Shown here piece by piece: positions 284 to 37,173 of a DNA stretch of 38,506 nucleotides. The translations under genes were made by a program, and so were the position numbers. Each line of letters starts with the position of its first letter. Position 1 is the first letter of the stretch. The DNA is taken from positions 1-38,506 of the forward strand of contig JAFRXO010000007.1 in assembly GCA_017443465.1 (NCBI GenBank), read 5' to 3'. Source of the stretch: Bacteroidales bacterium. GTDB taxonomy: Bacteria; Bacteroidota; Bacteroidia; Bacteroidales; UBA932. The notes under the pieces are model-generated. The model was not told the DNA's origin. It saw only the letters and a list, made by a program, of their open reading frames with translations, and did not search any database.

Positions 284-1975
284 ATGCGCAGGTTAGCTTT
301 ATTTATCTCTTTGCTCCTTTGCTTGAAAGTAAGTGCCCAGACCGTTACTGAAATCGAATCCCTTCCCGGGGAAATGTGGTGGGGAGCTGTCGTAAACAAG
401 GGTTACGTACAGCCATTTACTGATTTTGACGTAAGTGACAATCATCTGCATGTAGGGAAAGACGACCCTCGCAACCAGCCTGCCGCTACCCGGGACAATC
501 CTCCATATGACCTTTCATGCCATGGGACTCACGGATTTACCGTGCCGCTTTTCCTTTCCAACAAAGGGCGTTATATCTGGAGCGACCGTCCCTTCGCCTT
601 CCGCTTCCAGGGCGGCAGGCTGATCATATACTCCAAGGAAGGGAAAGTGGAACCTGTCACTGCCGGAAAGACCTTGAAAGACGCCTATATGGCAGCTTCG
701 GCCGCGCATTTTCCATTCGACGGGCGTGAACCCGCAGAACTGCTTTTCACAAGGCCTCAGTTCAACAATTGGATAGAATCCGCCATTTTCGGAATTGACC
801 AGCAGCATGCCGAGGAATATGTCGATGGAATTGCTCAAAGCGGTTTTCCCTGCGGGGTGATTACCATTGACGGAGGCTGGCAGCGTTATCATGGAAGAAG
901 GGATTTCAATCCCGAGACATTCCCGGACGCCATAAAACTGTTCGACAAGATCCATGGATATGGGTACAAGTCCATGTTGTGGTGTTCTTATTTCCTGTCA
1001 GCGGACAGCCGGCCGGAATATGTCAATTATAAGCCTACGGCTCAGAATATCCTCGTCAGGAACAGGCAGAAGCCCTGGGAGGCGGCTCTTGTGTGGTGGT
1101 GGAACGGGATCAGCGTTACCATGGACCTTACGTCGCCTCCGATCCGCAGGAAATTCAGCGACGAACTCGCCGCATTCGCCGAAAGATTCCACTTCGACGG
1201 CTTCAAGTTCGACGGAGGTGACCCGGAGTACTTCCGGAACCAGGCACTTTTCAGCGAGGAATGGATGGAGCCTGCCGATTTCGCGACTGGGTACAACCTT
1301 GTAGGAGAGGACTTTCCATATCATGAATACCGGGCCGGCTTCAAGACTGGAGGCCATCCTCTCGTCCTCCGGCTCCATGACATCGGACACACTTGGGAAG
1401 AGCTTCACATCATAATTCCCAATATCATCCTTGCCGGCCTCTGCGGTTATCCATATGCTTTCCCTGACATGATCGGAGGAGGGCTCGCGAGCAGTTTCGC
1501 TCCAGGAAAGAGCTTTTCCCACAAACTGTTCATCCGCTCCTGCCAGATCCAGGCGCTGATGCCTCTTATGCAGTTCAGCGCCGCCCCGTGGCGGGTCCTG
1601 ACAGAAGAGGAGTGCGGGATATGCCGTCGGTTCGCCCAGCTCCACACAGACTTTGCTCCTTATATCATGGAGCAGGTGCATCATGCTTCTTCTACCGGTG
1701 AACCTATAGTGCGCAGCATGGAATACGAGTTCCCTGGCTGTGGTTATGAGAAAGTGGACGGGCAGTACATGCTGGGCGGGAAGTACCTTGTGGCTCCAGT
1801 GCTCGATGAGGATGACTCAAAGACAGTATTCCTGCCTGCGGGGAAATGGCGTGATGACCTCGGGAAGGTTTTCAAGGGCCCGAAGGTCCTGGAACTTAAG
1901 GATGTCCCGCTGGACCGCCTGCCTTACTACGAGCGTCTGGACATGCGCCTATCCGGCAAGGGCGTCGGCAAATAG
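284..1975 (+). CDS. Secreted glycoside hydrolase family 31 protein
   Basis: The 563-residue protein starts with a signal peptide (residues 1-19, ending SAQ), so it should be periplasmic or exported. The middle is a GH31 TIM barrel. It has an IDGGW motif at the end of an early strand, and the nucleophile strand FKFDGGD contains D310, the likely catalytic nucleophile. LRLHDIGHTW contains D366, the likely acid/base. GH31 enzymes cleave alpha-linked sugars such as alpha-glucosides, alpha-xylosides and alpha-galactosides. The short beta-sandwich N-terminus and the FNPETFPD segment recall the MYORG-like branch rather than YicI. Substrate cannot be read from the sequence. The 3' end overlaps the convergent GH20-like gene by 27 bp. 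Confidence 0.85.
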   Translation: MRRLALFISLLLCLKVSAQTVTEIESLPGEMWWGAVVNKGYVQPFTDFDVSDNHLHVGKDDPRNQPAATRDNPPYDLSCHGTHGFTVPLFLSNKGRYIWSDRPFAFRFQGGRLIIYSKEGKVEPVTAGKTLKDAYMAASAAHFPFDGREPAELLFTRPQFNNWIESAIFGIDQQHAEEYVDGIAQSGFPCGVITIDGGWQRYHGRRDFNPETFPDAIKLFDKIHGYGYKSMLWCSYFLSADSRPEYVNYKPTAQNILVRNRQKPWEAALVWWWNGISVTMDLTSPPIRRKFSDELAAFAERFHFDGFKFDGGDPEYFRNQALFSEEWMEPADFATGYNLVGEDFPYHEYRAGFKTGGHPLVLRLHDIGHTWEELHIIIPNIILAGLCGYPYAFPDMIGGGLASSFAPGKSFSHKLFIRSCQIQALMPLMQFSAAPWRVLTEEECGICRRFAQLHTDFAPYIMEQVHHASSTGEPIVRSMEYEFPGCGYEKVDGQYMLGGKYLVAPVLDEDDSKTVFLPAGKWRDDLGKVFKGPKVLELKDVPLDRLPYYERLDMRLSGKGVGK

Positions 1976-3076
1976 GTCGATGCCCGAGATGGTGTGCTGG
2001 ATGTGCTTTTCGTTGTCGGTGGGGTCCCATGGAGCCATCATGAAGCCCAGCAGGTGATCTTTTGAAATATGCTCGCGGCAGAACGGAACCAGGCCGCCGA
2101 TTACATCATCGGCGCCGAGACCTTCAGCCCTGCGCTTTCCGCCTACCCAGTTGGTACTGCACGGAACCTGGTCGAAGCCGGCCTCGTCCAGTTTCAGGAA
2201 GCTCTCCAGGCGGATCCTGTCTGAAGTGAAGTTCTTTTCCAGGTCGAATCCGCCATATGCGCTGTCATAGAACCAGTTCTGCTGGATTACGCTTTTCGGG
2301 CAGCGTTTGACGAAGTCTTCATGATACCAGAAATGGTCGCTCCACATCCAGGGACGGGCGCCATGTCCTTCGATTGTGTCTACCAGGTGGTAGAGGTCTT
2401 TCCACCAGTAATCGTCCTGGCGTATGCATATGTATTTGTAGCCTTGCTTCTGCTGGAAATCAGCTGTTTCTTCATCGCAGCCGATGTGGAAAAAGCGCGG
2501 ATGCCCGAAAATCTCCATTACGTCGGAAATCACCTCTTCGCACATTCGGTAATATGGTTTAGATGAGACCATATGAGTGTAATCGCCCATCCAGCCGTTG
2601 TGCGTGGTGGAGAAATTCAGCTTCGGGATGACTTCGATTCCCAGGCTGTTGAGCCGGTCTATTTCCGTACGCATCTTCTCTATGCTCCACGTCCCTTCGA
2701 TAGCCAGTTCGGGATGGGAAGGGTAGAACAGGCCTTCTCCAAGGTCTATTACGACCATGTTGATGCCGCGCTCGGCAGCCCTGTCTGTTGCCCTGCGCCA
2801 AAGTTCATCAGAACAGATCAGATGGAGGTCCGGCTTCTTCTTCAGGCTCTTTATGGCTTGCTCCATGTCCTCTCCCATCTGGGCCGACGGGTAATCACAC
2901 CACATGTTGTTTCCCAGGTGGAGTAGCACGGAACGGATGTCTCCGATTCCGGCCTGTGCGGTCTGGGGATGGGTTTTGGGGATGCGGGGTTTTCTCGCGC
3001 CTGGTGCGCAGCTGATTCCCATGCCTGCGGCAACAAGTCCGGCCGCGGCGGAGCTGATGAAATTCCTTCTGTCCAA
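1949..3076 (-). CDS. Tat-signal lipoprotein with GH20-like TIM-barrel domain
   Basis: The 375-residue protein begins MDRRNFISSAAAG, a twin-arginine signal, and has a lipobox-like ISC with C23. It is therefore probably exported folded and lipid-anchored. The rest reads as a beta-hexosaminidase-like TIM barrel. FFHIGCDEET (about residue 200) resembles the H-x-G-x-D-E motif of GH20, where Asp and Glu assist the substrate acetamido group. The enzyme may act on N-acetylhexosamine glycans, but the family match is by motif only. The gene lies 35 bp downstream of the Fur-family gene on the same strand and may be co-transcribed with it. Its end overlaps the convergent GH31 gene. Confidence 0.7.
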   Translation of the reverse strand: MDRRNFISSAAAGLVAAGMGISCAPGARKPRIPKTHPQTAQAGIGDIRSVLLHLGNNMWCDYPSAQMGEDMEQAIKSLKKKPDLHLICSDELWRRATDRAAERGINMVVIDLGEGLFYPSHPELAIEGTWSIEKMRTEIDRLNSLGIEVIPKLNFSTTHNGWMGDYTHMVSSKPYYRMCEEVISDVMEIFGHPRFFHIGCDEETADFQQKQGYKYICIRQDDYWWKDLYHLVDTIEGHGARPWMWSDHFWYHEDFVKRCPKSVIQQNWFYDSAYGGFDLEKNFTSDRIRLESFLKLDEAGFDQVPCSTNWVGGKRRAEGLGADDVIGGLVPFCREHISKDHLLGFMMAPWDPTDNEKHIQHTISGIDLFADALAG

Positions 3077-3111
3077 AATATTGATGATTAATTCAGTACA
3101 GTATCCTATGT

Positions 3112-3573: not shown

Positions 3574-3598
3574 ATACAAATATATGAATAAAAATGGT

Positions 3599-3606
3599 TA
3601 TCTTTG
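3599..3606 (+). promoter_or_regulatory. -7 box for trxB
   Basis: TATCTTTG matches TAnnTTTG and ends 21 bp before the trxB ATG at 3628. The divergent Fur-family gene starts 25 bp to the left of this box, so its product could control both directions from this short gap. No clear -33 TTG is present. Confidence 0.55.
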
Positions 3607-3627
3607 CCTTTCTAAGCAAATACGGTT

Positions 3628-4560: not shown

Positions 4561-4582
4561 CCAGGACTGAAGAGAGAAACAT

Positions 4583-5479
4583 ATGATTAAGAACAGGTTA
4601 CTGATTGCCGCTCTTGCGGTGCTGGTTTTTTCAGGATGCTCGTCCAAATTCGACACGATCCTGAACAGTACTGACGTGGACAGCAAATATGCTTCGGCAT
4701 TCGAATATTTCAACGACGGGAAATTCCAGAAGGCGGCAAAGCTTTTCGAATCCCTTTCGGTCCAGACTAACGGAACGTCCAAGGAGGATACGGTCCAGTA
4801 TTACTGGGGACTGAGCAACTACCGTTTCAAGGATTTCTATACGGCAGAGACCAACTTCAGCAAGTTCATTACGAATTTCCCGAGGAGCCCCTTCACTCCC
4901 GAGGCCTCATTCCTCAGGCTGGACTGTCTCTACAGATCGACTTACAGGTATGAACTGGACCAGATGCCGACCCGTGCCGCAATAGGAAGCATCCACCAGT
5001 ATCTTGTGGATAATCCCGGCAATGTCCACACCGATGTCTGCAATGAAATGCTCCGGGACCTTAATGACCGCCTCGACAAGAAGGCTTTCGAAGGAGCCCG
5101 CCTCTATTACAAGATGGAAGATTACCAGGCTTCCCGTGTCGCTTTCCGCAACATCTTGAAGGATAATGCGGAAAATAATTACAGGGAGCAGATCCTCTAC
5201 TACATCGCCATGTCTTCCTACAAGTTCGCCCATCTGAGTGTCGCAGCCAAGCAGAGGGACCGCTACCTTACTTTCGTTGACGACTATTTCAACTTTATCG
5301 GCGAGTATCCGGAATCCGTTTACAGGCGCGAACTGGACGTTGTTTACAAGCGCGCGCAGAGGGCGATGGGCAACAATTCTGTAGAGGATGAGGATATCGA
5401 CATGTCCGACCGCCAGTTCCAGAAAGAGCGTAAGGGCAGATTGAAAGAAAATGAAACTTCCTCTGCTGACGGGAAGTAA
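4583..5479 (+). CDS. bamD: Outer-membrane assembly lipoprotein BamD
   Basis: The 298-residue protein has a lipoprotein signal ending VFSGC, with C19 as the lipidated cysteine. Tetratricopeptide-type helical repeats follow (YASAFEYFNDGKFQKAAKLFESL, then YYWGLSNYRFKDFYTAETNFSKFI). BamD works with BamA (encoded at 16460) to insert beta-barrel proteins into the outer membrane. The last 30 residues are highly charged. The start codon lies in a CATATG palindrome. The gene order bamD-rpoZ-recN is consistent with Bacteroidota. Confidence 0.93.
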   Translation: MIKNRLLIAALAVLVFSGCSSKFDTILNSTDVDSKYASAFEYFNDGKFQKAAKLFESLSVQTNGTSKEDTVQYYWGLSNYRFKDFYTAETNFSKFITNFPRSPFTPEASFLRLDCLYRSTYRYELDQMPTRAAIGSIHQYLVDNPGNVHTDVCNEMLRDLNDRLDKKAFEGARLYYKMEDYQASRVAFRNILKDNAENNYREQILYYIAMSSYKFAHLSVAAKQRDRYLTFVDDYFNFIGEYPESVYRRELDVVYKRAQRAMGNNSVEDEDIDMSDRQFQKERKGRLKENETSSADGK

Positions 5480-5524
5480 AACATATGGGGGCCATGGGGC
5501 TCCCGAGTGAACAAAGCCAAGAAT

Positions 5525-5878: not shown

Positions 5879-5883
5879 ACACC

Positions 5884-7536
5884 ATGCTCCGCTCCCTTTC
5901 CGTCAGGAACTATGTTTTGATAGACTCTCTGGAAATCAGTTTTCCGGAGGGTCTAATCATTATTACCGGTCAGACCGGCGCCGGAAAATCCGTACTGCTC
6001 GGAGCGCTCGGTCTGGTGCTGGGTGCCAAGGCTGACGTGTCCGCGATCTCAGGGGATGCCCCTTCTTGTGTGGTGGAGGCATCTTTCTTTACCGATGATC
6101 CTGCGGTAAGGGATGCGATAGAAGAATGCGGTGCAGACTGGGATGGAGGGAATCTCATCATCCGCCGGGTGGTCAACCGCAGTGCCCGTTCCAGGGCCTT
6201 CGTGAATGATTCTCCTGTCCCGCTTCCGGTTCTTCAGGAGATAGCATCCTCCCTTGTGGATGTTCATTCCCAGAACCAGACCCGGATCCTTTCAGACAAG
6301 TCTTTCCAGATGGCCGTTCTCGACCGTTTCGCAGGAGACGGAGAGCTGCTGGAGAAATGTTCGGAATCCTGGAAACGTCTGTCCGCCCTTAAGGGTGAAC
6401 TGGAAGAAAAACGCTCCTCCCTAGCCAGGGTTATGGAGGAAAGCGATTATATCCGCGCCCGTCTCGAGCAGCTCGAGAATGCCCGCTTGACAGACGGTGA
6501 ACTGGAAGCGCTTGAGGCTGAAGAAAAACGTCTGGCCAACGCGGAGGAGATCAAGGAATCTCTGCAGGGGGCGGGTGCATTATTGAGTCCCGGGGACGAC
6601 TCTTCCGGCCAGCCTGTTGACATCCTCCTCAAAGAGGCTTCGAGACTGCTCAGGAAGGTTATCCAGTACGTCCCTTCAATCGAGGGTCTTCCTGAGCGGC
6701 TTGAATCGGCAAGGATAGAGATCCGGGACATCATCGACACTTTAGAGGAAGCGGATGAGGGGATAGATGTTTCCCCCCAGAGGCTTCAGGAGGTCGGTGA
6801 CCGCCTGTCCCTTCTCTATGACCTTATGAAACGCTTCTCATGCAATGACATCGCTTCCCTGATCGCAAAGCGCGATTCCCTCGGAGGGATGCTTTCCGAC
6901 ACGGAGGGACTCGAAGAGAGGTGCCGGGAACTTGAAAAAGAGATAAGCGCAGAGAAACAGAGATACGAAAGCATATGCTCGGCTTTGCATGAAGCCAGGG
7001 CTGCTGCGGCTCCTTCATTCGCTTCAGCCATAGAAGGTTCCCTTCGCACCCTGGAATTGGAGAAAGCCGTTTTCGATGTGCTCGTCGTCGAAGGTCCTGC
7101 CTCTTCCTCCGGCCAGGATTCCGTACTGTTCCGCTTCTCCTCATCGGGAAAGGACCCTGTCGATGTTGCCAAGTGCGCTTCGGGAGGAGAGATGTCCAGG
7201 ATCATGTTGAGCCTTAAGGCTATGATGGCGCGCTACTCCGATATGCCTACACTGGTCTTCGACGAGATCGATACCGGAGTCTCGGGAAGCGCTGCAGACA
7301 AGATGGGCTCAATGATATGTTCAATGGGCGGCGACATGCAGGTCTTTGCCATAACCCATCTGCCCCAGGTGGCGGCCAAGGGCAGCGCGCATTATCTGGT
7401 GGAGAAATCGGGAACCACCACAATCCGCCGGATCGACGGTGAAGACAGGGTGATGGAGATTGCGAGGATGCTCAGCGGATCCAGGATCACTCCTGCCGCC
7501 GTTGCCAATGCCAAATCCCTTCTGGGATCCGATTGA
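5884..7536 (+). CDS. recN: DNA repair ATPase RecN
   Basis: The 550-residue SMC-like ATPase acts in double-strand break repair by recombination. The Walker A motif GQTGAGKS is at residues 29-36. A long coiled-coil middle (about residues 160-360) is rich in Glu, Leu and Arg. The C-terminal head has the ABC signature ASGGEMSRI and Walker B TLVFDEIDTGVSG, followed by the switch histidine in FAITHLPQ. Length is normal. Its stop codon directly abuts the stop codon of the convergent hddC-gmhB fusion, with no gap and no visible terminator. Confidence 0.96.
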   Translation: MLRSLSVRNYVLIDSLEISFPEGLIIITGQTGAGKSVLLGALGLVLGAKADVSAISGDAPSCVVEASFFTDDPAVRDAIEECGADWDGGNLIIRRVVNRSARSRAFVNDSPVPLPVLQEIASSLVDVHSQNQTRILSDKSFQMAVLDRFAGDGELLEKCSESWKRLSALKGELEEKRSSLARVMEESDYIRARLEQLENARLTDGELEALEAEEKRLANAEEIKESLQGAGALLSPGDDSSGQPVDILLKEASRLLRKVIQYVPSIEGLPERLESARIEIRDIIDTLEEADEGIDVSPQRLQEVGDRLSLLYDLMKRFSCNDIASLIAKRDSLGGMLSDTEGLEERCRELEKEISAEKQRYESICSALHEARAAAAPSFASAIEGSLRTLELEKAVFDVLVVEGPASSSGQDSVLFRFSSSGKDPVDVAKCASGGEMSRIMLSLKAMMARYSDMPTLVFDEIDTGVSGSAADKMGSMICSMGGDMQVFAITHLPQVAAKGSAHYLVEKSGTTTIRRIDGEDRVMEIARMLSGSRITPAAVANAKSLLGSD

Positions 7537-8787
7537 TTACAGATATTCCTCCAGAACCTTTGACAGAGCGTAGGGCTCATTCGACGGGATCTTGACAGAT
7601 GCCATCACTCCTGCGTTTTCTCCGGCCATCACATCCCTGTCGTGGTCTCCTATCATGATGGAGCGGGAGAGGTCTATGCCCCAGTCCCCGGCGGCTTTCA
7701 GAAGCATCCCGGGAGCGGGTTTCCGGCAATCACAGACTATCTTGTATTCCGGCCTTTCGCCCGGAAAGCCCTTGTCAGGATGATGCGGGCATATGTATAT
7801 GTCGTTAACGAAGGCGTGCTCCTGTCCGAGAAGTGTCTCCATCCGGGCGTTGATCCTGCCCAGCTCTTCCCAGGAACAATCGCCCCTGGCTATCACCGGC
7901 TGGTTAGTCACCACTATGGCCAGCCATCCTGAAGCGTTTATCCTGGCGATTCCCCCGGCTGCGCCTTCGATCAGTTCCATGTCTTCTTCGCGGCTCAGGA
8001 ATCCCTTCTCCACATTGATGACTCCGTCCCTGTCCAGGAAGACTGCCGGGCGGAGATTTCTGCGGTTCAAAGCTGCGACCCTTCCGCTACGGACGTCTGC
8101 GCACACCTCTGCATACCTTTCGGGAGTGCCCATGTCTTTGATGTATTCTGCGGAGGGGTAGCCGAAGAACCTCATCCCCTTGTCCAGGCATGAGGGGAAT
8201 ATGTCTTTTTCCAGGTTCAGCCTGACCGCTTCCGGTATCTCGTCCACAACTTTTGGAGACAGGATGAAGAGTGAGGCGTTGACCTGGTTCCTCGAGATGA
8301 ATCCTTCTTCATGGGGCTTGAGGCGGAATGCGGTTATCCTGTGGGAAGAGTCGGTTTCGACAATGTCGGAATCATATGGATGGTCGTTCGGATGGACGAA
8401 AAGGGTGGCGTCAGAGCGGTTCTCCCTGTGGAAGCGGAGCATATGCTCCATGTCCACGTCCATCACAGTGTCGCCGTAAAAGACGAAGAAGTCCTCAGTG
8501 AGGAGTTCCCTGGCCTGGCGGAGGGCACCTGCTGTCCCTAGAGGCTCCTTTTCCTGGCAGTAGGTGATGTTCACCCCCAGGGAAGAACCGTCTTTGAAAT
8601 AGTCGCGGATAACGTCTCCGAGATGACCGGTGAGGAATATGAAATCCTTGAAACCATATGATGCGGCCATTTCGACCTGCCGCTGGATAACCGGCTTCCC
8701 TTCGACGGGTATCATCGCCTTGGGAATCTCAGAAAAGGAGGAGGCGATCCTGGTCCCTTTCCCCCCGGCTATGATTACTGTTTTCAT
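7537..8787 (-). CDS. Bifunctional heptose-1-phosphate nucleotidyltransferase / heptose bisphosphate phosphatase (HddC-GmhB fusion)
   Basis: This 416-residue protein has two enzymes in one chain. Residues 1 to about 235 form a sugar-phosphate nucleotidyltransferase, with the N-terminal AGGKGTR loop and the later FVFYGDTVMD metal site. Residues 245-416 form a HAD phosphatase of the GmhB type, with FLDRDGVIN carrying the catalytic aspartates, the zinc-loop residues CPHHPD...CDCRKP, and IGDHDRDV. Together they would remove the 7-phosphate from heptose 1,7-bisphosphate and then attach the nucleotide, probably GMP because the upstream kinase is of the HddA type. The start overlaps gmhA by 4 bp, indicating tight coupling. 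Nucleotide specificity is inferred from context. Confidence 0.88.
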   Translation of the reverse strand: MKTVIIAGGKGTRIASSFSEIPKAMIPVEGKPVIQRQVEMAASYGFKDFIFLTGHLGDVIRDYFKDGSSLGVNITYCQEKEPLGTAGALRQARELLTEDFFVFYGDTVMDVDMEHMLRFHRENRSDATLFVHPNDHPYDSDIVETDSSHRITAFRLKPHEEGFISRNQVNASLFILSPKVVDEIPEAVRLNLEKDIFPSCLDKGMRFFGYPSAEYIKDMGTPERYAEVCADVRSGRVAALNRRNLRPAVFLDRDGVINVEKGFLSREEDMELIEGAAGGIARINASGWLAIVVTNQPVIARGDCSWEELGRINARMETLLGQEHAFVNDIYICPHHPDKGFPGERPEYKIVCDCRKPAPGMLLKAAGDWGIDLSRSIMIGDHDRDVMAGENAGVMASVKIPSNEPYALSKVLEEYL

Positions 8788-9410: not shown

Positions 9411-9414
9411 ATGT

Positions 9415-12240: not shown

Positions 12241-12256
12241 TGCGGCATATGTTGTT

Positions 12257-15694: not shown

Positions 15695-15709
15695 GCAGCG
15701 GGATCCCAT

Positions 15710-28201: not shown

Positions 28202-29299
28202 ATGAAAAAATCGGTAACAGCCCTTGTGGCTTTCCTGATGTCTTTCTCCATGTTTGCAGGAGAAACGACAGAAACCTCTTCCCAGGCATCCCAGGAGAAG
28301 GCCCCTGTCGTTACCACAAAGATCAGTGGTTTCGTCATCGGAGAATACAATTACACTTCCCTGGAGGGAGCAAAGCCTGACAATACCCTTTCACTGCGTA
28401 TCGCCAGGGTCCAGGCTGCAGGCCGGATCCTCGGAGACTTCAACTACCGTCTCCAGATCCAGGTCAACGGTACCAGCAATTCAATCGGTGGTCCCCGCAT
28501 CGTCGATGCTTTCATCGAGTGGGACAAGTACAAGGCATTCTGTGTCAAGTTCGGACAGTTCAAGAGGGCTTTCACCTTCGAGAACCCCATGAACCCGATA
28601 GACCAGGGTTTCTACGGATACAGCCTTTCTACCTCTAAACTGGCCGGTATGAATGACCGCATCGGCGAGCACGCCAGCAACGGCCGTGACCTTGGTCTCC
28701 AGTTCCAGGGTGATCTTTTCCAGATTGACAACCATCCGTTCATCCACTACCAGGTAGGCCTCTATAATGGCCAGGGTATCAATGTGAAGGATGCCAACAG
28801 TCACAAGGATCTCATCGGCGGCCTGTGGTTCATCCCCGTAAAGGGCGCCCGTATCGGTATGTTCGGCTGGGATGGCCGCTACACTCGCGGTGACGTCACC
28901 CTGAAGCGTCAGCGCTATGCCATCTCCGGAGAGTATCTTGTAAGCGACTGGACCTTCCGTTCAGAGTATGTCCACAGCTATGGATATGCTTTCAAATCGG
29001 GTTACGGCAGCAGTGACGTCAGCCTCAACGAGGTCCTCGGCGACAAGTCCGATGCATGGTATGCAGCAGTCATCGCCCCGGTGGTCAAGAACGTCTTCCA
29101 CCTCAAGGCCCGTTACGACGTTTACAGGGACAATGCTTCCTGGGAGCGTTGCTACACCGCATATGACTTCGGTGCTGATTACCAGTTCACCAAAAACCTG
29201 GTGATCTCGGGAATCTATTCATTCGTGAATGACCGTCGCCTGGCAGAAGGAAAGCACAACTACAGCACTGCCGACCTGCAGATATCGTTCAGGTTCTAG
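28202..29299 (+). CDS. Outer-membrane porin, phosphate-selective O/P-like
   Basis: The 365-residue protein has a signal peptide (about residues 1-19, ending FAG). A mature beta-barrel with alternating aromatic strands follows, including KISGFVIGEYNY, DFNYRLQIQVNG, FCVKFGQFKRAFTFE and YAISGEYLVSDWTFRSEY, and it ends in an aromatic residue (ISFRF). It resembles the OprO/OprP porin family of Bacteroidota. Being 20 bp after a DASS transporter suggests it lets the same anion cross the outer membrane. Its stop overlaps the convergent nrdG stop by 4 bp, and a forward terminator lies inside nrdG. Confidence 0.82.
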   Translation: MKKSVTALVAFLMSFSMFAGETTETSSQASQEKAPVVTTKISGFVIGEYNYTSLEGAKPDNTLSLRIARVQAAGRILGDFNYRLQIQVNGTSNSIGGPRIVDAFIEWDKYKAFCVKFGQFKRAFTFENPMNPIDQGFYGYSLSTSKLAGMNDRIGEHASNGRDLGLQFQGDLFQIDNHPFIHYQVGLYNGQGINVKDANSHKDLIGGLWFIPVKGARIGMFGWDGRYTRGDVTLKRQRYAISGEYLVSDWTFRSEYVHSYGYAFKSGYGSSDVSLNEVLGDKSDAWYAAVIAPVVKNVFHLKARYDVYRDNASWERCYTAYDFGADYQFTKNLVISGIYSFVNDRRLAEGKHNYSTADLQISFRF

Positions 29300-29808
29300 T
29301 CTTTTTTCCTGCGCCAGATTACAGGCGTTATGTCCTCCTTTACGCGGCGTATGGCCGCACTTCCTCCGGCTCCTGCCGAGATGACGGAATGGACATGATA
29401 AAGCCTTTGATTAGTGGTCCTCTCGTTGAGAGGACCTTTTTTTTCTACATATGGCCCGAGCTTGACATAGTCGAAGACCTGCCATATGTCATCTTCCACC
29501 TGGTTCCGTCCCGAGTACAGGGCGGGAGCGATTCCCGGATATTTTTCGGAGATATACTTTCCTATGCGGACGAGGGCCTGGTGGTCCCGTCCTTCGCCTA
29601 GAAGGAGGAAACAATTGACTCCGAAGTTATCGGAGATCAGGGAATCGATCCGTTCAAAGGTAAGTTCCTCTCCTATGTCTTCACGGAGGAAGGGAGAATG
29701 GCATCCCGGACAGTTTTCCGGGCAGTTGGTGATGTCAACAGCCACTGAAACCCTGTCCGGGATTTCCTCAAGTACTATCGAGACCCTGTCGGGCAGGTAC
29801 TTGATCAT
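29296..29808 (-). CDS. nrdG: Anaerobic ribonucleotide reductase activating enzyme
   Basis: The 170-residue radical-SAM activase generates the glycyl radical on NrdD. DITNCPENCPGCHSP holds C29, C33 and C36, the CxxxCxxC ligands of the 4Fe-4S cluster. GEELTFERIDSLI follows, as in the family. The C-terminal third contains an Ala/Gly-rich stretch and a basic RRKKD tail. It starts by a 4-bp overlap with nrdD. A perfect forward-strand terminator hairpin lies in its 3' half and serves the opposing porin gene. Confidence 0.92.
   Translation of the reverse strand: MIKYLPDRVSIVLEEIPDRVSVAVDITNCPENCPGCHSPFLREDIGEELTFERIDSLISDNFGVNCFLLLGEGRDHQALVRIGKYISEKYPGIAPALYSGRNQVEDDIWQVFDYVKLGPYVEKKGPLNERTTNQRLYHVHSVISAGAGGSAAIRRVKEDITPVIWRRKKD
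29416..29444 (+). terminator. Forward terminator for the porin gene, embedded in nrdG
   Basis: The perfect 9-bp stem GGTCCTCTC (29416-29424) / GAGAGGACC (29428-29436) has a GTT loop and is followed by eight T residues on the forward strand. It lies 117 bp past the porin stop and within the nrdG coding sequence on the other strand, where it encodes KKGPLNERTT. On the reverse strand no T run follows the hairpin, so nrdG transcripts should not stop here. Confidence 0.85.
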
Positions 29809-32015
29809 GCCTCTACTTTAACCTCTGCGGGCTCTTCGGCGTAGAAGCGCTGGTAGGCCTCTTTCTGGCGTATTTCGGCGAAGGAGGAGATGCGTTTGAG
29901 GTAGCCGATAACCCTGGTCAGGTAATCCAGATTGTGGCTGTGGCACTTCGGGCACTCCGAAAGGGTGTCCTTGGAAATGTAGCCGCAATCATTGCAGACC
30001 GTATTGCGGATGTTGAAGGTGAAGTAGTTCGTTCCGTAATGGGCTGCGACATTGAGGAGCTGGCGGTACTGCTCCTTGGTGAGGTGCTCGTCCAGATTCA
30101 TATGCAGGGCGCTTCCTCCGTCGAGGTATTTCACATATTCCTCACCGTGGAGCTTGAACTTGTCTATGATCGACAGGCTGCTGTCCTCCGGATTGTAGAA
30201 ATAGGAAGAATACATGACGTGCTTCGGGGAGACGAAGTAGCCGTCCTTGCGATCCCAGTTGTAGTTCTTGCCTGCAAGGTTCTCGGCCGGGACGAATTCG
30301 GTGTTGAACATGGTGTCCTTCGTCCTGTCCTTGCGGTTGGAGATGTTGATGGTCTCCAGCAGCATGTTGACGAAATCCTTGTAATCGTCGTTCGGGGAGA
30401 TGGTCAGTCCGAGGAACTCTGCCGCATCGGTCATTCCGTTCACTCCGACGGTAAGGTACTGGCGCCTCATGTCGATGAATCCGGCACGATAGACATCCAG
30501 CATGTCGGCCTTGAGGAAGTCCTTGATGATTTCATTGAAGGCCGTCTGGTACTTGTGCACGCGCTCGGTCTCTTCGGTCACCTCTTCCTGGATGTAGAGG
30601 TAGAGCTTAGCCTTGTCATATGAATTCGGATCCAGGGCCATTCCTGCGGGCAGGTCGATGCGTTTCTCCTTCTTGAAGTACTTGCGGGTGGCGTTCTGGA
30701 TGAGGCGGTTCAGGTTGATGGTCATCACAGACTTGCTTCCGGTTGACACCGAAGCGGTACCCATGGAGTACTGGTGGGTAGTGTGGTTGTGCTCCTCGTC
30801 GTTGTGGTCCAGGTCCTTGAGGGAATTGCGCAGGCGGCAGCAGCTGGAGAGGCTGTCGGGGCTGTTGGAGAGGTAGCAGAAGAAGCTGTGTCCCTTGCTC
30901 CACATCTCGGATGTGAAATCCGCATATTCCTTGTCGGCGAAGTCGTCGCCTCCGTCGGTCATGAGGGCCATGGTCTCGACGGGGAAGGTAAGGATGTAGT
31001 GATTGCGCTCCTCGTTGAACCAGTTCATGAAGTGTTTCTGGAGCCATGAGAGGGTCTCCCACTTGGGCTGGGTGCCGTCGGGGAAGAAGAAGTCCTTGAA
31101 GACCCCGTTGAAATAAGGCTCGTCGAAGTAGCTGATGTTCCAGAACACAGTCTGGTAGCCCCTGTTGCCGGCGGGCATGTTCATGGAATGGACGACCTGC
31201 TGGAAACAGTTGTCTATGACCTTCTCCAGGGTGCGCTGCTTGCGGTTGTTCTCCACTACGTCGTTGAGGTGGTAGATGTAGTCGTCCCCGTAGTCCTTGC
31301 GGATGAAATAGTCGAGGTACATCAGGAACTCCGGAGTAGCTACCGCGCCCATGAACTGGGAGCTGATGGAGTACACCAGGTTGATGAATTCCCCGCAGAA
31401 GGATTTCAGGTCGGTGGGAGCGACTGAGACTCCGCCCAGTTCGCGGAGGCCGTTCACCAGGAACGGATACATGGTGATGGCCACGCAGTAAGGATAACCC
31501 GGGGTGCCGCTCTCATCATGCTTGTAAAGGACGTGGGACTCGAGGTCGGCGAGATACTGCTTTGCGAGGGACCTGCCGTACAGAGCCTTGATCTTGTCCG
31601 TCATGATGTAACGGTTCTGCTTGATGTTGTTCTCCTTGTAGAGTTCCTGGCCGAGGGTCACAATGTTCTTGCGGGTGACGTTGGCGTTGGCGTCGAATTT
31701 GGAACCGGAAGCCGCGTTGGAAGCTTTGATGTAGTCATGGATGAAGTCGCGCTTCTTGCGGAGGTCGAGTCCGGCATCGAAGGTCTCGATGTATTCAAGG
31801 GCGACCCTCTTGTTGATGGACATCAGGGAGTCCACTACCTGGCGGCGGATTTCCTGGCTGGAAATCTTGTCGTAGATATAGAGGTTGTCAGTGATTGAAA
31901 CGACTACTTCTTCGGGGCAGGCCTGTCCTGTGTGTGCATATGCGAGCCTTATGCCTCTTTTAAGTTTCTCGAGGTCGAACTCTTCGTAAGTCCCATTGGT
32001 TTTCCTTACATCCAT
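29805..32015 (-). CDS. nrdD: Anaerobic (class III) ribonucleoside-triphosphate reductase
   Basis: The 736-residue enzyme makes deoxynucleotides without oxygen. Residues 1-90 are an ATP-cone (VRKTNGTYEEFDLEKLKRGI), the allosteric site. The catalytic barrel follows. The C-terminus has the zinc site CNDCGYI...CPKCHSH and the glycyl-radical loop RVIGYLKR, with the radical on the glycine. NrdG, encoded just downstream with a 4-bp overlap, installs the radical. The gene has a leader of about 140 bases with two hairpins and a TAACTTTG -7 box. Confidence 0.96.
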   Translation of the reverse strand: MDVRKTNGTYEEFDLEKLKRGIRLAYAHTGQACPEEVVVSITDNLYIYDKISSQEIRRQVVDSLMSINKRVALEYIETFDAGLDLRKKRDFIHDYIKASNAASGSKFDANANVTRKNIVTLGQELYKENNIKQNRYIMTDKIKALYGRSLAKQYLADLESHVLYKHDESGTPGYPYCVAITMYPFLVNGLRELGGVSVAPTDLKSFCGEFINLVYSISSQFMGAVATPEFLMYLDYFIRKDYGDDYIYHLNDVVENNRKQRTLEKVIDNCFQQVVHSMNMPAGNRGYQTVFWNISYFDEPYFNGVFKDFFFPDGTQPKWETLSWLQKHFMNWFNEERNHYILTFPVETMALMTDGGDDFADKEYADFTSEMWSKGHSFFCYLSNSPDSLSSCCRLRNSLKDLDHNDEEHNHTTHQYSMGTASVSTGSKSVMTINLNRLIQNATRKYFKKEKRIDLPAGMALDPNSYDKAKLYLYIQEEVTEETERVHKYQTAFNEIIKDFLKADMLDVYRAGFIDMRRQYLTVGVNGMTDAAEFLGLTISPNDDYKDFVNMLLETINISNRKDRTKDTMFNTEFVPAENLAGKNYNWDRKDGYFVSPKHVMYSSYFYNPEDSSLSIIDKFKLHGEEYVKYLDGGSALHMNLDEHLTKEQYRQLLNVAAHYGTNYFTFNIRNTVCNDCGYISKDTLSECPKCHSHNLDYLTRVIGYLKRISSFAEIRQKEAYQRFYAEEPAEVKVEA

Positions 32016-32306: not shown

Positions 32307-33725
32307 ATGAGACTTATACCGATTTATTCCTGGACCCGCGGGGTCCGCAATTTCAACAAGAGGAACAGCCGTTTTTCCAAACAGCCCTGGGCCCAGGGCA
32401 TAATCCTTCTGGCCTGCGTCGCAGTAGCGATGTTGCTGGCAAACCTCCCCGGTACCAGGGACCTTTACCACTCATTCCTTGCCACTGACCTCGGATTCAG
32501 CGTGAAGACTCCCTCCGGAAGGGGTTTCATGTTCCCGAGGGACATGACCGTGCTGAATTTCGTCAATGACATCCTCATGGTCATTTTCTTTTTCTCGGTC
32601 GGCCTTGAAATCCGCCGCGAGATGGACCATGGAGAACTGAGTACGCCGAAAAAGGCGATCCTTCCCGTGATAGCCGCTTTCGGAGGTGTATTATTCCCCG
32701 CAGTAATATACACAGTAATAAATCACGGTACATATGCATCGTCGGGATGGGGGATTCCTACCGCAACCGACATCGCTTTCTCGATCGGTATCCTTTCCAT
32801 GCTTGGAAAGCGCGTCCCGCTGTCCCTCAAGGTTTTCCTCGCGACCCTTGCAGTCGCGGACGACCTTATCGCAATCCTTGTGGTTGCCATTTTCTACGGA
32901 GGCAGTATCAACCTGCTCCTTCTGGGGATCGCCTTCCTTGTAATACTCCTGGTAGTCCTCATCAACCGCCTCGGCGAGAAGCGTCCCTCCTTCTATCTGT
33001 TCCACGCCATACTGGTGTGGATACTGTTCTACTACGCCGGAATACACTCTACCATGTGCGGGGTGGTGATGGCCTTCCTCATACCGATGAAGCCCAGGTA
33101 CAACAGGGCATATTATTACAGGAAGCGCGACCAGTACCGCCGCAGGCTCTCCGAATATGACCTTATCGAAGAGGCCGGAGACTTCCCGAACGGGCCGCAG
33201 AGACACTGCCTGCGCAACCTGAGCCATATCAGCAAATACTGCATAGGGATGACCGACAGGATGGAGCATATGCTTTCTCCGTGGGTTACGTTCCTGATCA
33301 TGCCGCTGTTCGCACTTGCCAATGCCGGCGTGACCATCAGCGACCCGGCATATTTCAACATATTCCAGTTCTCTCCCGTGGAGGGAAGCGTCAGCCTGGG
33401 CATATTCCTTGGGCTCGTCCTTGGAAAGCCTGTAGGCATAACCCTGGCCAGTTTCATCGCAATCAAGACAGGGGTTGGCGCCATGCCGTCCAGGGCGACA
33501 TGGAAGATGCTTTTCGCGGTGGCCTGCCTGGGAGGAATCGGTTTCACCATGTCCATCTTCGTGGACACCCTTTCATTCTCCGACCAGCTGCCGGAAGTGA
33601 CTGCCAGGCTTCGTGACATGGGCAAGATCGCGGTCCTTCTCGGATCGCTTGTCGCAGGGGTTGTCGGTGCGTTCCTGATCTCCCTGGTGTCCCGGCTGGA
33701 GAATAAGGCTACCAGCCTTTCCTGA
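32307..33725 (+). CDS. nhaA: Na+/H+ antiporter NhaA
   Basis: The 472-residue inner-membrane antiporter exports sodium in exchange for protons. The start at 32307 follows a GGAGAA stretch. About 12 membrane segments are visible. The paired aspartates of the ion site are in FLATLAVADDLIAILVVAIFY, and GIPTATDIAFSIGILSMLG is the other core signature. A charged loop (about residues 270-320, rich in Arg and Tyr) separates the halves. The last 17 bp overlap the convergent hydroxyacid dehydrogenase gene, and a 15-bp direct repeat lies at this junction. Confidence 0.94.
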   Translation: MRLIPIYSWTRGVRNFNKRNSRFSKQPWAQGIILLACVAVAMLLANLPGTRDLYHSFLATDLGFSVKTPSGRGFMFPRDMTVLNFVNDILMVIFFFSVGLEIRREMDHGELSTPKKAILPVIAAFGGVLFPAVIYTVINHGTYASSGWGIPTATDIAFSIGILSMLGKRVPLSLKVFLATLAVADDLIAILVVAIFYGGSINLLLLGIAFLVILLVVLINRLGEKRPSFYLFHAILVWILFYYAGIHSTMCGVVMAFLIPMKPRYNRAYYYRKRDQYRRRLSEYDLIEEAGDFPNGPQRHCLRNLSHISKYCIGMTDRMEHMLSPWVTFLIMPLFALANAGVTISDPAYFNIFQFSPVEGSVSLGIFLGLVLGKPVGITLASFIAIKTGVGAMPSRATWKMLFAVACLGGIGFTMSIFVDTLSFSDQLPEVTARLRDMGKIAVLLGSLVAGVVGAFLISLVSRLENKATSLS

Positions 33726-33757
33726 TATTCCCGGCTATTGAAGCTACCAGCCTTTCC
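33708..33757. repeat. 15-bp direct repeat at the nhaA / dehydrogenase junction
   Basis: GCTACCAGCCTTTCC occurs at 33708-33722 and again at 33743-33757. The left copy contains the last sense codons of nhaA and the stop codon of the reverse dehydrogenase. The right copy encodes ERLVAS in the dehydrogenase. A short duplication or deletion between such copies may have reset the two stop codons. Confidence 0.85.
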
Positions 33758-34638
33758 CTGGCCTCTACGCTGGCCCAGGCTGTGTGCGGAGTGAAGCGGA
33801 ACCTCTCGGGGTGCCGTGTGTGGAGAAGCGGACTGTTGGCCGGTAGGGGCTCCTTCTCGAATACATCCAGCGCCGCTCCGCCTATGGCCTCTTCGTCGAT
33901 CGCGGCGGCAAGTGCGGCTTCGTTGACGATTCCTCCGCGTCCCATGTTCACTATGAAGGCTCCGGGTTTCATCATCTTCAGCTCTTTCTCTCCGATGAGG
34001 CCTGCTGTGTGCTCGTTATACGGGGCGTGGACGGATATGACATCCGAATGGCGCATAAGTTCCTCAAGAGGGACCGAGGGGTAGTCTTTGCAGTGGGAAG
34101 TCCCTGAGGTAGAATAATATATGACATTCATTCCGAAGGCGGTCCCGATCCGTGCGACCTTCGATCCTATGGTCCCCATGCCGACTATGCCCAGAGTCTT
34201 TCCGGTGCTTTCGTAGAACGGCTTTGAAAGGTCGGTGAAAATGTTGCTCGAGGAGTATTCCCCGCTTTTGACTTTCGCGTCAAGGTAAGGGCCGTTCCCC
34301 ATGAGGGAGAGGATGTGCATGAATGTCTCCTGTACGACGGCATCGGTGGAGTAACCGGCCACGTTCCTGACCGGTATGCCCCTCTTCCTGCATTCTTCCA
34401 CATCGATGTTGTTGACTCCGGTAGCGGCCTCGCATATGAGCCGGATCCCGGGACCGGCATCCAGCAGGGCGCGGTCGATACGGACCTTGTTGGTGATTAC
34501 CACCTCGGCATCAACGACTCTTTCCAGGGCCTGGGCCGGGGTCGAGGTTCCGTAGGTGACAAGTTCACCGCATTCTTCTATCGGGGTGAGGGGAGTGTCG
34601 CCAAGGGTGGCTGCATCCAGGAAGACTATCTTTGCCAT
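33709..34638 (-). CDS. D-2-hydroxyacid dehydrogenase
   Basis: The 309-residue NAD-dependent enzyme reduces a 2-oxoacid or oxidises a D-2-hydroxyacid. GMGTIGSKVARIG is the nucleotide-binding loop. NMGRGGIVNEAAL carries the catalytic arginine, DVFEKEPL the glutamate, and PHTAW the histidine. Overall it resembles glycerate or lactate dehydrogenases more than serine-pathway SerA, having no C-terminal ACT domain. The substrate is uncertain. The C-terminus ends ASIAGNIRKGW, somewhat shorter than usual, at the 15-bp repeat that overlaps nhaA. Confidence 0.9.
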   Translation of the reverse strand: MAKIVFLDAATLGDTPLTPIEECGELVTYGTSTPAQALERVVDAEVVITNKVRIDRALLDAGPGIRLICEAATGVNNIDVEECRKRGIPVRNVAGYSTDAVVQETFMHILSLMGNGPYLDAKVKSGEYSSSNIFTDLSKPFYESTGKTLGIVGMGTIGSKVARIGTAFGMNVIYYSTSGTSHCKDYPSVPLEELMRHSDVISVHAPYNEHTAGLIGEKELKMMKPGAFIVNMGRGGIVNEAALAAAIDEEAIGGAALDVFEKEPLPANSPLLHTRHPERFRFTPHTAWASVEARERLVASIAGNIRKGW

Positions 34639-34711
34639 TGTATTGAAATGCTTTATGTCGTAAAATTAGCAAAAAACGCAAAAAATAACCGTGCCTTTCA
34701 TTGGAAATGAG

Positions 34712-34719
34712 TAAATTTG
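34712..34719 (+). promoter_or_regulatory. -7 box for typA
   Basis: TAAATTTG matches TAnnTTTG and ends 25 bp before the typA ATG at 34745. A second match, TATTTTTG, lies at 34725-34732 and could give a very short leader. Confidence 0.5.
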
Positions 34720-34744
34720 TAAATTATTTTTGAAACAGACTCCA

Positions 34745-36559
34745 ATGCAAGAAATCAGGAATATCGCACTTATCGCACATGTCGACCACGGTAAGACCAC
34801 TATGGTAGACAGGATGATCTACCAGGCCAATCTGGTGCGCCGGCCGGAGAATCTCGGGAATCTCATTCTCGACAATAACGACATCGAAAGGGAGAGGGGA
34901 ATCACCATCCTGGCCAAGAATGTCTCGGTCACTTACAAGGGAGTGAAGATCAATATCATCGACACCCCGGGCCACGCCGATTTCGGCGGGGAGGTCGAGA
35001 GGGTCCTCAATATGGCTGACGGAGTGCTCCTTCTTGTGGATGCCTTCGAGGGATGCATGCCCCAGACCCGTTTCGTGCTCCAGAAGGCTCTCAGCATGGG
35101 AAAGAAACCCATCGTGGTCATTAACAAGGTCGACAAACCGAACTGCAATCCGGACGAGGTCCAGGAGCAGGTGTTCGACCTGATGTTCGACCTGAACGCC
35201 ACCGAGGAGCAGCTGGATTTCAAGACCATTTTCGGAAGCGCCAAGCAAGGCTGGATGTCAACGGACTGGCGACGTCCTACCAAGGACATCACCGCTCTTC
35301 TGGACACCATCCTCGAGGAAATCCCGGCGCCCAAGGTTGTAGAAGGAACGCCACAGCTCCTGATATCTTCACTGGAGTATTCCCCATATGTCGGACGTAT
35401 CGCAGTCGGCAAGCTTACCCGAGGCACTCTCAAGACCGGCCAGCAGGTGAGCCTCTGCAAGCGTTACGAGGAGATCCAGAAATCCAAGATCAAGCAGCTG
35501 ATGATTTTCGACGGACTGAGCAAGTCCAACGTCGAGGAAGTGGAATGCGGAGACATATGCGCGGTAGTCGGGATCGAAGGTTTCGAGATCGGAGACACCA
35601 TTTCCGATTATGAGAATCCCGAGGCCCTTCCTCCCATCGCTGTTGACGAGCCGACCATGAGCATGATGTTCATGATCAACAATTCCCCCTTCTTCGGACG
35701 TGACGGGAAATACGTAACTTCCAGGCATATAAAGGAGCGCCTTGACAAGGAGCTCGAGAAGAATCTGGCCTTGAGGGTGAAGCCAGGACTGAATGCTGAT
35801 TCTTTTGTGGTCTACGGCCGCGGTGTGCTTCATCTCTCAGTGCTTATCGAGGAAATGCGCCGCGAGGGATTCGAACTCCAGATCGGCCAGCCGAAGGTCC
35901 TGGACAAGACGATCGACGGACGCAGGTGCGAACCTATAGAGGAAATGACCATAGAGGTTCCGGAGGAATTCGTCGGGACCGCTATCGAACTCTCTACACG
36001 CCGCAAGGGAGCCCTCGTACGTATGGAACCGCGCGGTGACCGTACACTTCTGGACTTTGAGATCCCGACCAGGGGAATCATGGGCCTGAGGAGCAACCTG
36101 CTGACCGCCACCCAGGGAGAGGCTGTCATGGCGCACCGTTACAAGGAGTATCAGCCCTACAAGGGGGATATCGACGCCAGGGTGAACGGCTCCCTCGTTT
36201 CGATAGAGACCGGACAGGCGATAGCCTATTCGATGAACAAGCTTCTCGACAGGGGACGTTTCTTCGTGGATCCGGGAGAGGACATCTACGGAGGACAGGT
36301 TGTCGGCGAGCACACCCGTGAGAGGGACCTGAATGTAAACATATGCAAGACCAAGAAGCTCACCAACGTGCGTGCTGCAGGTTCGGACGAAAAGATCATA
36401 CTGCCCCCTCCGGTCAAATTCACCCTTGAGGAGGCGCTGGAGTACATCCGTGAGGACGAGCTGGTAGAGGTGACCCCTCATTATATGCGTATCCGCAAGA
36501 TATTCCTCGATCCGCTTGAGCGTAAGCGCCGCGGTGACACCGCTGATTCCGCAGAATAA
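34745..36559 (+). CDS. typA: Ribosome-associated translational GTPase TypA/BipA
   Basis: This 604-residue protein starts at the ATG at 34745; a TTG at 34730 lies inside a -7 box. The G1 motif AHVDHGKTT, switch region DNNDIERERGITILAKN, G3 DTPGHADFGGEVERV and G4 NKVDKPN are all intact. Domain II and the BipA-specific C-terminus (TRGIMGLRSNLLTATQGEAVM) follow. It binds the ribosome and helps 50S assembly and stress or low-temperature growth. Its neighbours yceD and rpmF are also ribosome-linked. Confidence 0.96.
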   Translation: MQEIRNIALIAHVDHGKTTMVDRMIYQANLVRRPENLGNLILDNNDIERERGITILAKNVSVTYKGVKINIIDTPGHADFGGEVERVLNMADGVLLLVDAFEGCMPQTRFVLQKALSMGKKPIVVINKVDKPNCNPDEVQEQVFDLMFDLNATEEQLDFKTIFGSAKQGWMSTDWRRPTKDITALLDTILEEIPAPKVVEGTPQLLISSLEYSPYVGRIAVGKLTRGTLKTGQQVSLCKRYEEIQKSKIKQLMIFDGLSKSNVEEVECGDICAVVGIEGFEIGDTISDYENPEALPPIAVDEPTMSMMFMINNSPFFGRDGKYVTSRHIKERLDKELEKNLALRVKPGLNADSFVVYGRGVLHLSVLIEEMRREGFELQIGQPKVLDKTIDGRRCEPIEEMTIEVPEEFVGTAIELSTRRKGALVRMEPRGDRTLLDFEIPTRGIMGLRSNLLTATQGEAVMAHRYKEYQPYKGDIDARVNGSLVSIETGQAIAYSMNKLLDRGRFFVDPGEDIYGGQVVGEHTRERDLNVNICKTKKLTNVRAAGSDEKIILPPPVKFTLEEALEYIREDELVEVTPHYMRIRKIFLDPLERKRRGDTADSAE

Positions 36560-36586
36560 TTCTGAGTGAAAATTGCCGCATGAGGC

Positions 36587-36616
36587 TTGCATTCAGAAAA
36601 AAAATGCTTACCTTTG
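36587..36616 (+). promoter_or_regulatory. Promoter of yceD-rpmF
   Basis: TTG at 36587-36589, 19 bases, then TACCTTTG at 36609-36616 is a full match to the Bacteroidota TTG/TAnnTTTG arrangement. It is the best promoter in the window and lies 26 bp before the yceD ATG. Confidence 0.75.
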
Positions 36617-36642
36617 CATCCCCTAAAATCTTTTGAAGGCAT

Positions 36643-37173
36643 ATGCATGAAAACTACATTATTCCTTTGAATGGATTGGACAGGGAGTGGAAGAAATTCC
36701 CCTGGCATGTAGGCAAAGAGTTCTTTACAGATTTTGGTAATTCAGAAATCCGCGATTGTGACGTTCAGGTTGAGGCTGAGGCGGCAAAAAGGGGGAGCAG
36801 GATCGACATTGACTGCCATATGGGCGGCTCAGTCGTGACAGTATGCGACCGCTGTCTCGGGGATCTGGAAATGGCAATCGATACTGACCTTCACCTTGCA
36901 GTGAGATTCGGGAACGAACCTGAGTCCTCACCTGAGGAAGAGGATGGACGCGAAGTGGTTTATGTCGGGATGGACAGCGACTCCATCGAGATGGATCAGA
37001 TTATCTACGATTACATATGCCTTTCCGTTCCGCTTCACAAGGTTCATGAGGACGGAGGCTGTGATCCGGAAGTTCTGAAGTTTATCAAGACAGATGGCGG
37101 GAGTGAGGAGAAGAAGGCTGCGGCCAATAATCCTTTCTCCGTCCTTAAAGGACTGTTGGACAAGAAATTATGA
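36643..37173 (+). CDS. yceD: YceD/DUF177 ribosomal accumulation protein
   Basis: The 176-residue DUF177 protein has the family cysteine pair in VVTVCDRCLGDLEM (CxxC) and an acidic middle (EPESSPEEEDGRE). The conserved EMDQIIYDYICLSVPLHKVHEDGGC segment follows. In other bacteria YceD aids 23S rRNA and 50S accumulation and is almost always next to rpmF, as here (19 bp). The start codon lies within CATATG. The ending NNPFSVLKGLLDKK resembles the usual C-terminus. Confidence 0.88.
   Translation: MHENYIIPLNGLDREWKKFPWHVGKEFFTDFGNSEIRDCDVQVEAEAAKRGSRIDIDCHMGGSVVTVCDRCLGDLEMAIDTDLHLAVRFGNEPESSPEEEDGREVVYVGMDSDSIEMDQIIYDYICLSVPLHKVHEDGGCDPEVLKFIKTDGGSEEKKAAANNPFSVLKGLLDKKL

Follow-up and report, generated by a model that had tools for sequence, protein, structure and literature searches.

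The hexamer CATATG as a highly iterated palindrome in a lineage of the Bacteroidales

Results

CATATG in the window

The window analysed here, a stretch of 38,506 nucleotides (nt) from contig JAFRXO010000007.1 of a Bacteroidales bacterium, carries ordinary chromosomal genes, among them recN, bipA and the genes for undecaprenyl diphosphate synthase, a POTRA-repeat protein, a glutamate-type dehydrogenase and anaerobic ribonucleotide reductase. The palindromic hexamer CATATG occurs in it exactly 58 times, 7.0-fold the 8.2 copies predicted from base composition. An earlier note on this DNA, made from the sequence alone, had counted about 58 copies by hand where about 8 were expected, an excess of about seven-fold. 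The exact search reproduced these figures, and 57 of the 58 starts listed were exact; the copy listed at 2255 lies at 2254..2259.

The 31 open reading frames (ORFs) considered in the window contain the word in all three phases, as had been claimed: 27 copies read NCA-TAT-G, 16 read C-ATA-TG and nine read CAT-ATG; six copies lie outside the ORFs. The codon that completes the word was used at every place: TAT for Tyr in 27 of 27 CA_G contexts, ATA for Ile in 16 of 16 C_TG contexts and CAT for His in nine of nine cases before Met. This agrees with the suggestion that these codons are preferred over their synonyms to complete the word.

The ORF of a GH31 protein holds two copies in the NCA-TAT-G phase (504..509 and 1452..1457), and a minus-strand ORF with no Pfam match holds one in the C-ATA-TG phase (2427..2432) and one in the CAT-ATG phase (2570..2575). 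The copies at 7790..7795 and 8440..8445 are in the C-ATA-TG and CAT-ATG phases, respectively; that at 6972..6977 lies within recN and that at 5482..5487 is not within the ORFs considered. Start codons are spanned by the word in a YfiO-like ORF (4580..4585), a minus-strand SIS-domain ORF (9408..9413), the undecaprenyl diphosphate synthase ORF (15707..15712) and a YceD ORF (36640..36645), and the copy at 12246..12251 is located immediately upstream of a minus-strand LysM ORF. Exact matches were also found at 8373..8378, 8655..8660, 9059..9064, 9089..9094, 9256..9261, 9341..9346, 10032..10037, 10293..10298, 12029..12034 and 12051..12056. The remaining copies are described below together with their counterparts in related genomes.

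Excess of the word in the whole genome

The genome containing the window (G000; 2,645,555 bases in 81 contigs, 96% complete) has 4,230 copies of CATATG, that is 1,599 per Mb, against 79 of the reversed word GTATAC, so that the window can be regarded as a fair sample of a genome-wide trait. Under a first-order Markov model of 274,312 bases of G000 (15,439 of them N), 55 copies were expected and 424 were found (7.7-fold). A maximal-order Markov model of the window gave 44.9 expected copies and a z score of 3.6, and three other hexamers had higher or similar values. This model was discarded as the wrong null: it masks the signal, since the component words CATAT and ATATG are themselves raised by CATATG.

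The earlier note had proposed synonymous codon shuffling as a test that might abolish the excess. It did not: in 487 ORFs of G000 (584 kb) 1,005 copies were observed against 233 expected (standard deviation 12, maximum 260 in 100 shuffles), an excess of 4.3 times. ORFs of at least 100 amino acids, outside mostly-N stretches, were taken by the longest-ORF rule, which places some starts wrongly. Four small contigs of G000 with little CATATG (C8, C16, C18 and C33, see below) were included in the codon-shuffle, context, noncoding, dipeptide and start-codon counts. When both strands were folded together, these contigs left out and only hexamers with an expectation of at least 25 kept, CATATG had the highest z score of all; its ratio to expectation was 4.37 in G000, 4.49 in a second carrier genome (G423) and 0.94 in relatives. 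The hexamers that followed it, ATATGC, ACATAT, ATATGA and ATATGG, are overlaps of the palindrome.

Palindromes were also compared across 101 sequence sets of relatives, using sets of at least 8,000 coding bases and words seen at least eight times. The top z score among these sets was 5.7, for TCCGGA; CATATG reached 10.4-10.5 in two sets of G000 and one of G423, all in the same size class as the relatives' sets.

The flanks of the word were weak, the strongest preference being G at position -1 (37%). An extended 8-bp palindrome, GCATATGC, was overrepresented 13.6-fold and was considered as the true unit, but rejected: its G and C flanks co-occur no more often than they occur apart, both being present in 90 of 848 oriented copies, where independent flanks at 37% each would give about 116.

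CATATG is thus enriched in its own host, contrary to the depletion expected of an avoided restriction target. Some other words behaved unusually in the same counts. GTATAC is strongly avoided in G000 and G423 (codon-shuffle ratios of 0.07 and 0.10, and 0.49 in relatives) and does not occur in the window. Several GATC-containing words are less avoided in G000 and G423 than in relatives (AGGATC, 1.19 vs 0.78), which would fit an absence of restriction at GATC. TCCGGA is present at about 1.8-2.2 times its first-order expectation in G000, G423, another genome of the genus (G211) and both sets of relatives, with codon-shuffle z scores of 5-6 in a few sets.

Reading phases, noncoding DNA and start codons

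In the codon-shuffle test of G000 the excess was present in each phase: 599 copies observed against 85 expected in the Tyr phase (7.1-fold), 252 against 55 in the Ile phase (4.6-fold) and 154 against 93 in the His-Met phase (1.65-fold). At places where Tyr comes after Ala, Pro, Ser or Thr and is itself followed by a G, the word was formed in 599 of 820 cases (73%) in G000; two sets of relatives formed it in 42 of 573 and 79 of 550. In the CA_G context Tyr was encoded by TAT in 599 of 622 cases in G000 and 117 of 120 in G423, against 42 of 104 and 79 of 139 in the relatives; outside this context G000 used TAT in 3,260 of 6,952 cases. His was CAT before Met in 154 of 161 cases, and Ile was ATA in 252 of 286 C_TG contexts. 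Overall, the codon completing the word was chosen at 88-96% of places in G000, against 7-57% in relatives.

The excess extends beyond codon choice. Noncoding DNA of G000 contains 63 copies against 10.8 expected (5.8-fold), a density of 1.26 per kb compared with 1.72 per kb in coding DNA. CAT precedes the ATG start codon of 60 of 338 ORFs in G000, against six of 372 and seven of 346 in the relatives, by a simple start rule; this is the count in which start errors of the longest-ORF rule matter most. Among dipeptides with an expectation above 20, His-Met, the only residue pair that can be CAT-ATG, had the highest z score over relatives (1.65 in G000 and 1.33 in G423, against 0.91), and the force on the word therefore seems to reach even the choice of amino acid. 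Excess in all phases, in noncoding DNA, at start codons and in His-Met supports the main proposal of the earlier note, a cause at the level of DNA, as for HIP1 of cyanobacteria, and not a protein or codon-pair effect.

Distribution of the trait among relatives

In a sample of 400 genomes from the genus, one of them G000, a similar density was found in G423 only (3,353 copies of CATATG against 39 of GTATAC in about 2.1 Mb). G423 is also the nearest to G000 by bipA, with 88% DNA identity, the others being at most 79% identical among the matches listed (a match was obtained in 361 of the 400 genomes). The best BipA matches among named records were rumen and gut Bacteroidales bins. Relative to first-order expectation, CATATG stood at 0.87 in named relatives (49 loci, 760 kb) and 1.15 in relatives of the genus (40 loci, 633 kb), compared with 7.7 in G000 (259 kb) and 9.7 in G423 (42 kb). 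The comparison with related genomes that had been proposed earlier gave no comparable excess in either set of relatives.

By raw count G211, the next highest genome, appeared to be a second carrier (2,028 copies against 41), and was rejected as such: TAT was used in 33 of 47 CA_G contexts and in 362 of 597 cases elsewhere, with a z score of 1.7 (40 kb only). Given this scant word-specific codon context, its high count is ascribed mainly to codon use. G115 (loci L213 and L214) is a possible second, weaker carrier: 20 of its 24 contexts fit the word, with a z score of 4.5 against a mean of -0.5 and a spread of 1.4 in the 101 sets. ATATAT is also raised in G115, which shares 78% bipA identity with G000.

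Within G000, the exceptions to the genome-wide spread are the contigs C8, C16, C18 and C33 (L092, L100, L102 and L265), with only 0-0.52 copies per kb. Their codon context is at baseline (four of 34 opportunities for the word used), and together with the low density this suggests that they are probably contaminants or recent arrivals. CATATG density could thus act as a marker of bin quality. A SusC-like TonB-dependent receptor (L260:7916-11218) offers seven opportunities and contains no copy; it was possibly acquired recently.

Conservation between the carriers and states in outgroups

Alignment of G000 and G423, restricted to non-overlapping alignments of more than 700 columns and more than 78% identity, gave 50,973 columns with 12.9% divergence, in which 66 copies of CATATG were common to both, from 90 in G000 and 75 in G423. 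CATATG was kept between the carriers at 80%, compared with 49% for pooled words with four A/T; this was the highest retention among palindromes with 14 or more occurrences, and it ranked second among the 617 words with 60 or more. Silent positions were preserved as well. In conserved tripeptides, each G000-G423 pair being counted from both sides, the NCA codon was retained in 73 of 79 cases inside the word, compared with 395 of 826 outside it; the corresponding figures were 35 of 38 and 165 of 304 for ATA, and 76 of 79 and 258 of 342 for TAT.

The two carriers share the word in the window at 13043..13048, 14441..14446, 14982..14987, 20708..20713, 21448..21453, 29160..29165, 29483..29488, 30617..30622, 32731..32736, 33267..33272, 34433..34438 and 37014..37019, and at two of the start codons mentioned above (15707 and 36640). 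An outgroup shares it with them at 14141..14146 (G033), 27429..27434 (G308) and 31937..31942 (G405). At 21009..21014 the word is present in G423 and G033, and G405 and G308 have CACATG.

At other sites common to the carriers different words were found in outgroups: CCTACG, two changes away, in G405 and G308 at 21391..21396, and again CCTACG at 21866..21871 (G308 and G033), 22118..22123 and 22583..22588 (G405 and G308) and 26594..26599 (G308); CATCTG at 24736..24741 (G308) and, within bipA, at 35554..35559 and 36340..36345 (five of seven outgroups at each).

G423 itself differs at 15403..15408 (CATCTG, as in G405 and G033), 18738..18743 (CGTATG), 20731..20736 (CTTATG), 22507..22512 (CACATG, as in G405; G308 has CATATG), 25413..25418 (CATACG; G308 has CCTACG), 26981..26986 (CATGTG), 29448..29453 (TATACG), 30099..30104 (CATGTG, as in G405 and G033; G308 has CATATG) and 36817..36822 (CGTATT), and in bipA at 35385..35390 (CTTATG), where the seven outgroups have CCTACG, CGTACG, CTTACG or, in G117, CATATG. 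One-step differences made up 16 of 24 and four of nine differences between the carriers and hit all three positions of the half-site.

Outgroups rarely hold the word at the sites of the window (one of 19, three of 23 and two of 24); any hexamer of the window is unchanged in outgroups at 18-20% of places. The trait accordingly looks recent. The forms found in outgroups at CATATG sites are CCTACG, CATCTG and CACATG and, less clearly, AATATG and TATATG. CCTACG occurs in an outgroup at seven sites, at five of which both carriers have CATATG, two letters away. Should the outgroup forms be ancestral, transitions as well as transversions are among the gains, some raising and others lowering the GC content. 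Taken with the differences at every half-site position, these varied forms speak against a single mutational channel. The comparison indicates that CATATG arose at many sites after the carriers had separated from the outgroups.

Search for a methyltransferase recognising the word

One account of such a word is a HIP (highly iterated palindrome) in the strict sense of Elhai: an orphan methyltransferase specific for CATATG would mark the parental strand, and methyl-directed mismatch repair would keep and spread the word. CATATG is a known restriction-modification target (NdeI, FauNDI), which counts in its favour. So does the fact that the alternate HIPs of cyanobacteria coincide with a methyltransferase of the same specificity (Elhai 2015, PMC4390886), and that the density of about 1,600 per Mb falls inside the range of 500-2,500 per Mb given there for cyanobacterial HIPs.

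A profile search of G000 gave no match to PF01555, PF02086, PF00145 or PF02384, and the two sub-cut-off matches to PF07669 were PrmC, which is over its own curated cut-off, and a TrmN-like protein, by its best match, itself below cut-off. In G423, searched for two families, PF02384 was not found and PF07669 gave a single sub-cut-off match. The search with PF05063 carries no weight, its control being silent. A DNA pattern for DPPY/NPPY-type motifs was at background in G000 (72 places, and 70 for the reversed pattern). Fifty-three of these places were read; 21 of them fell in frames of 110 amino acids or more, among which, by eye and profile, only RsmD-, PrmC- and TrmN-like proteins resembled methyltransferases. 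These negative results are limited in scope, covering a genome that is 96% complete, 53 of the 72 places and standard families only.

The orphan methyltransferase named as a candidate in the earlier note has thus gained no support so far from a search that was not exhaustive, and we consider a strict methyltransferase-based HIP unlikely, though worth keeping in view.

Spacing of the copies and other explanations

Gaps and opportunities were analysed without contigs C8, C16, C18 and C33, and for opportunities more than 2 kb from the end of a stretch. The gaps between copies in G000 were near-exponential (n=1,074, coefficient of variation 1.04). By quartile of distance to the nearest copy, opportunities were used at 0.77, 0.87, 0.82 and 0.79 (p 0.88). 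Regular spacing and clustering were looked for in both analyses and none of note was found. Opportunities with no other copy inside 1 kb were used less (16 of 31), and we read these isolated opportunities as being in part foreign genes.

Copies accrue regardless of nearby copies, and this points to a bias of maintenance at each site rather than to selection on spacing. Selection for number or spacing of copies, as a strand mark for mismatch repair, a Chi-like signal, a DNA-uptake sequence or a chromosome-organising site, is suggested by copies that are dense, dispersed and preserved, resembling known signals. Set against this are the near-random spacing and the lack of a clear diminishing return near other copies; moreover, uptake signals tend to be longer than a 6-bp palindrome, and palindromic Chi sites are not known. 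Such selection is disfavoured by the autonomy of the sites and we regard it as improbable, and spacing-dependent signals (repair marks, and the uptake and recombination signals of the earlier note) are weakened as candidates, no clear neighbour effect being seen.

An abundant DNA-binding (nucleoid) protein that benefits equally from every copy, with independent selection at each site, would account for preserved silent positions, neighbour independence and the raised His-Met. It would, however, require thousands of sites each under selection sufficient to hold silent codons at 88-96%, with no diminishing return, and the density in noncoding DNA is not higher than in coding DNA. This explanation we find distinctly improbable.

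Context-dependent mutation bias or base composition has very little probability in our view. In its favour, relatives too show a mild excess of ATAT (1.63 and 1.73 times first-order expectation), and in some of them, such as G211, a high raw count is accounted for by codon use. Against it, many kinds of difference from the word were seen, the excess belongs to the complete word, and GTATAC, of equal composition, is rare. A codon-pair or translational effect, suggested by the 599 of 1,005 coding copies in the Tyr phase, is scarcely credible with a shuffle excess in all three phases and enrichment in noncoding DNA and at start codons.

Discussion

The comparisons with relatives indicate that some force acts upon CATATG as a unit of six letters, whatever its reading phase and also in noncoding DNA and at start codons. 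They further indicate that the word is preserved between two carrier species and used at each place irrespective of its neighbours. The reading that we favour, tentatively and at a little under even probability, is that CATATG is a HIP-class palindrome of one recent, gut-type Bacteroidales lineage, maintained by a per-site bias of repair or conversion due to a protein that reads the word. A protein recognising the CATATG duplex would bias mismatch repair or recombinational conversion site by site: changes leading to the word would be retained and those leading away from it corrected. Since the changes that converge on this six-letter duplex are of many kinds, it is simplest to suppose that the whole word is recognised. 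Of the candidates in the earlier note, a biased repair system is the one that would fit best. The recogniser could be an unrecognised methyltransferase acting through methyl-directed repair, as proposed for HIP1, or a binder that does not methylate.

Several observations weigh against such a bias. His CAT showed little extra retention between the carriers (eight of 10 within the word and 124 of 166 elsewhere, a small sample). Gaps of at most 20 bp were somewhat rare (2.5% vs 3.8% expected), the nearest quartile of opportunities was used a little less than the next, and heterogeneity of gene content could hide a weak regularity. The methyltransferase version faces the negative evidence of the family profiles and the motif pattern, and no recogniser protein of any kind was found, genes for MutS/MutL, RecBCD/AddAB, Dnd and Dpd not having been searched for. 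Finally, independent selection at each site would leave identical traces; we infer a per-site bias as the preferable of the two.

CATATG belongs with the cyanobacterial HIPs, as a new word in a new phylum. Like HIP1 (GCGATCGC) and the alternate HIPs, it is a grossly overrepresented palindrome spread over the genome, and like the alternate HIPs it is sporadic among relatives (PMC4390886). The following features of a HIP were found for CATATG: overrepresentation, a frequency within the stated range, overlapping words at the top of the list and occurrence in both coding and noncoding DNA. Unlike most cyanobacterial HIPs, which are GC-rich (PMC4390886), CATATG is a 6-bp word with an AT core, and it occurs in the Bacteroidales. 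In contrast to the alternate HIPs, no methyltransferase of the standard families was found in the limited search of G000, and the high level was seen in two of 400 genomes of the genus. The string CATATG does not appear in PMC4390886, and no report of it as an iterated word was found in the literature by titles and beginnings of abstracts.

Other systems offer partial likenesses. The DNA-uptake sequences of Neisseria and the Pasteurellaceae are also short words present about once per kb genome-wide; they are about 9-12 bp long and non-palindromic, unlike CATATG with its weak flanks and no clear spacing effect. Chi sites are likewise overrepresented short chromosomal words, but oriented and non-palindromic. 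Very-short-patch repair by Vsr, with the Dcm cytosine methyltransferase, is also a repair bias that reads a word and makes its own target more frequent; it acts on one mismatch type, whereas the CATATG carriers differ at every position and no C5-methyltransferase match was obtained in G000.

To our knowledge, the reason why cyanobacteria carry HIP1 is unsettled. A HIP-like phenomenon in an unrelated phylum, with a different word, has an origin that can be bracketed, since two genomes with 88% bipA identity share the trait, and none of the relatives listed, with identities of up to 79%, shows it at such a level. With carriers and non-carriers both available among related genomes, the cause can be sought by subtraction of gene content. 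A methyltransferase is apparently missing and neighbouring copies show no clear effect; both findings are relevant to the leading model.

We also consider possible, with more doubt than confidence, a HIP independent of methylation, in which a CATATG-recognising protein would rewrite the genome to its own target by biased repair or conversion, in a lineage apparently devoid of ordinary DNA methyltransferases. If true, this would be a drive that reinforces itself, powerful enough to keep silent codons at 88-96% and to raise His-Met. In this lineage a DNA word, rather than translation or the function of proteins, can govern codon choice, a dipeptide and the context of start codons.

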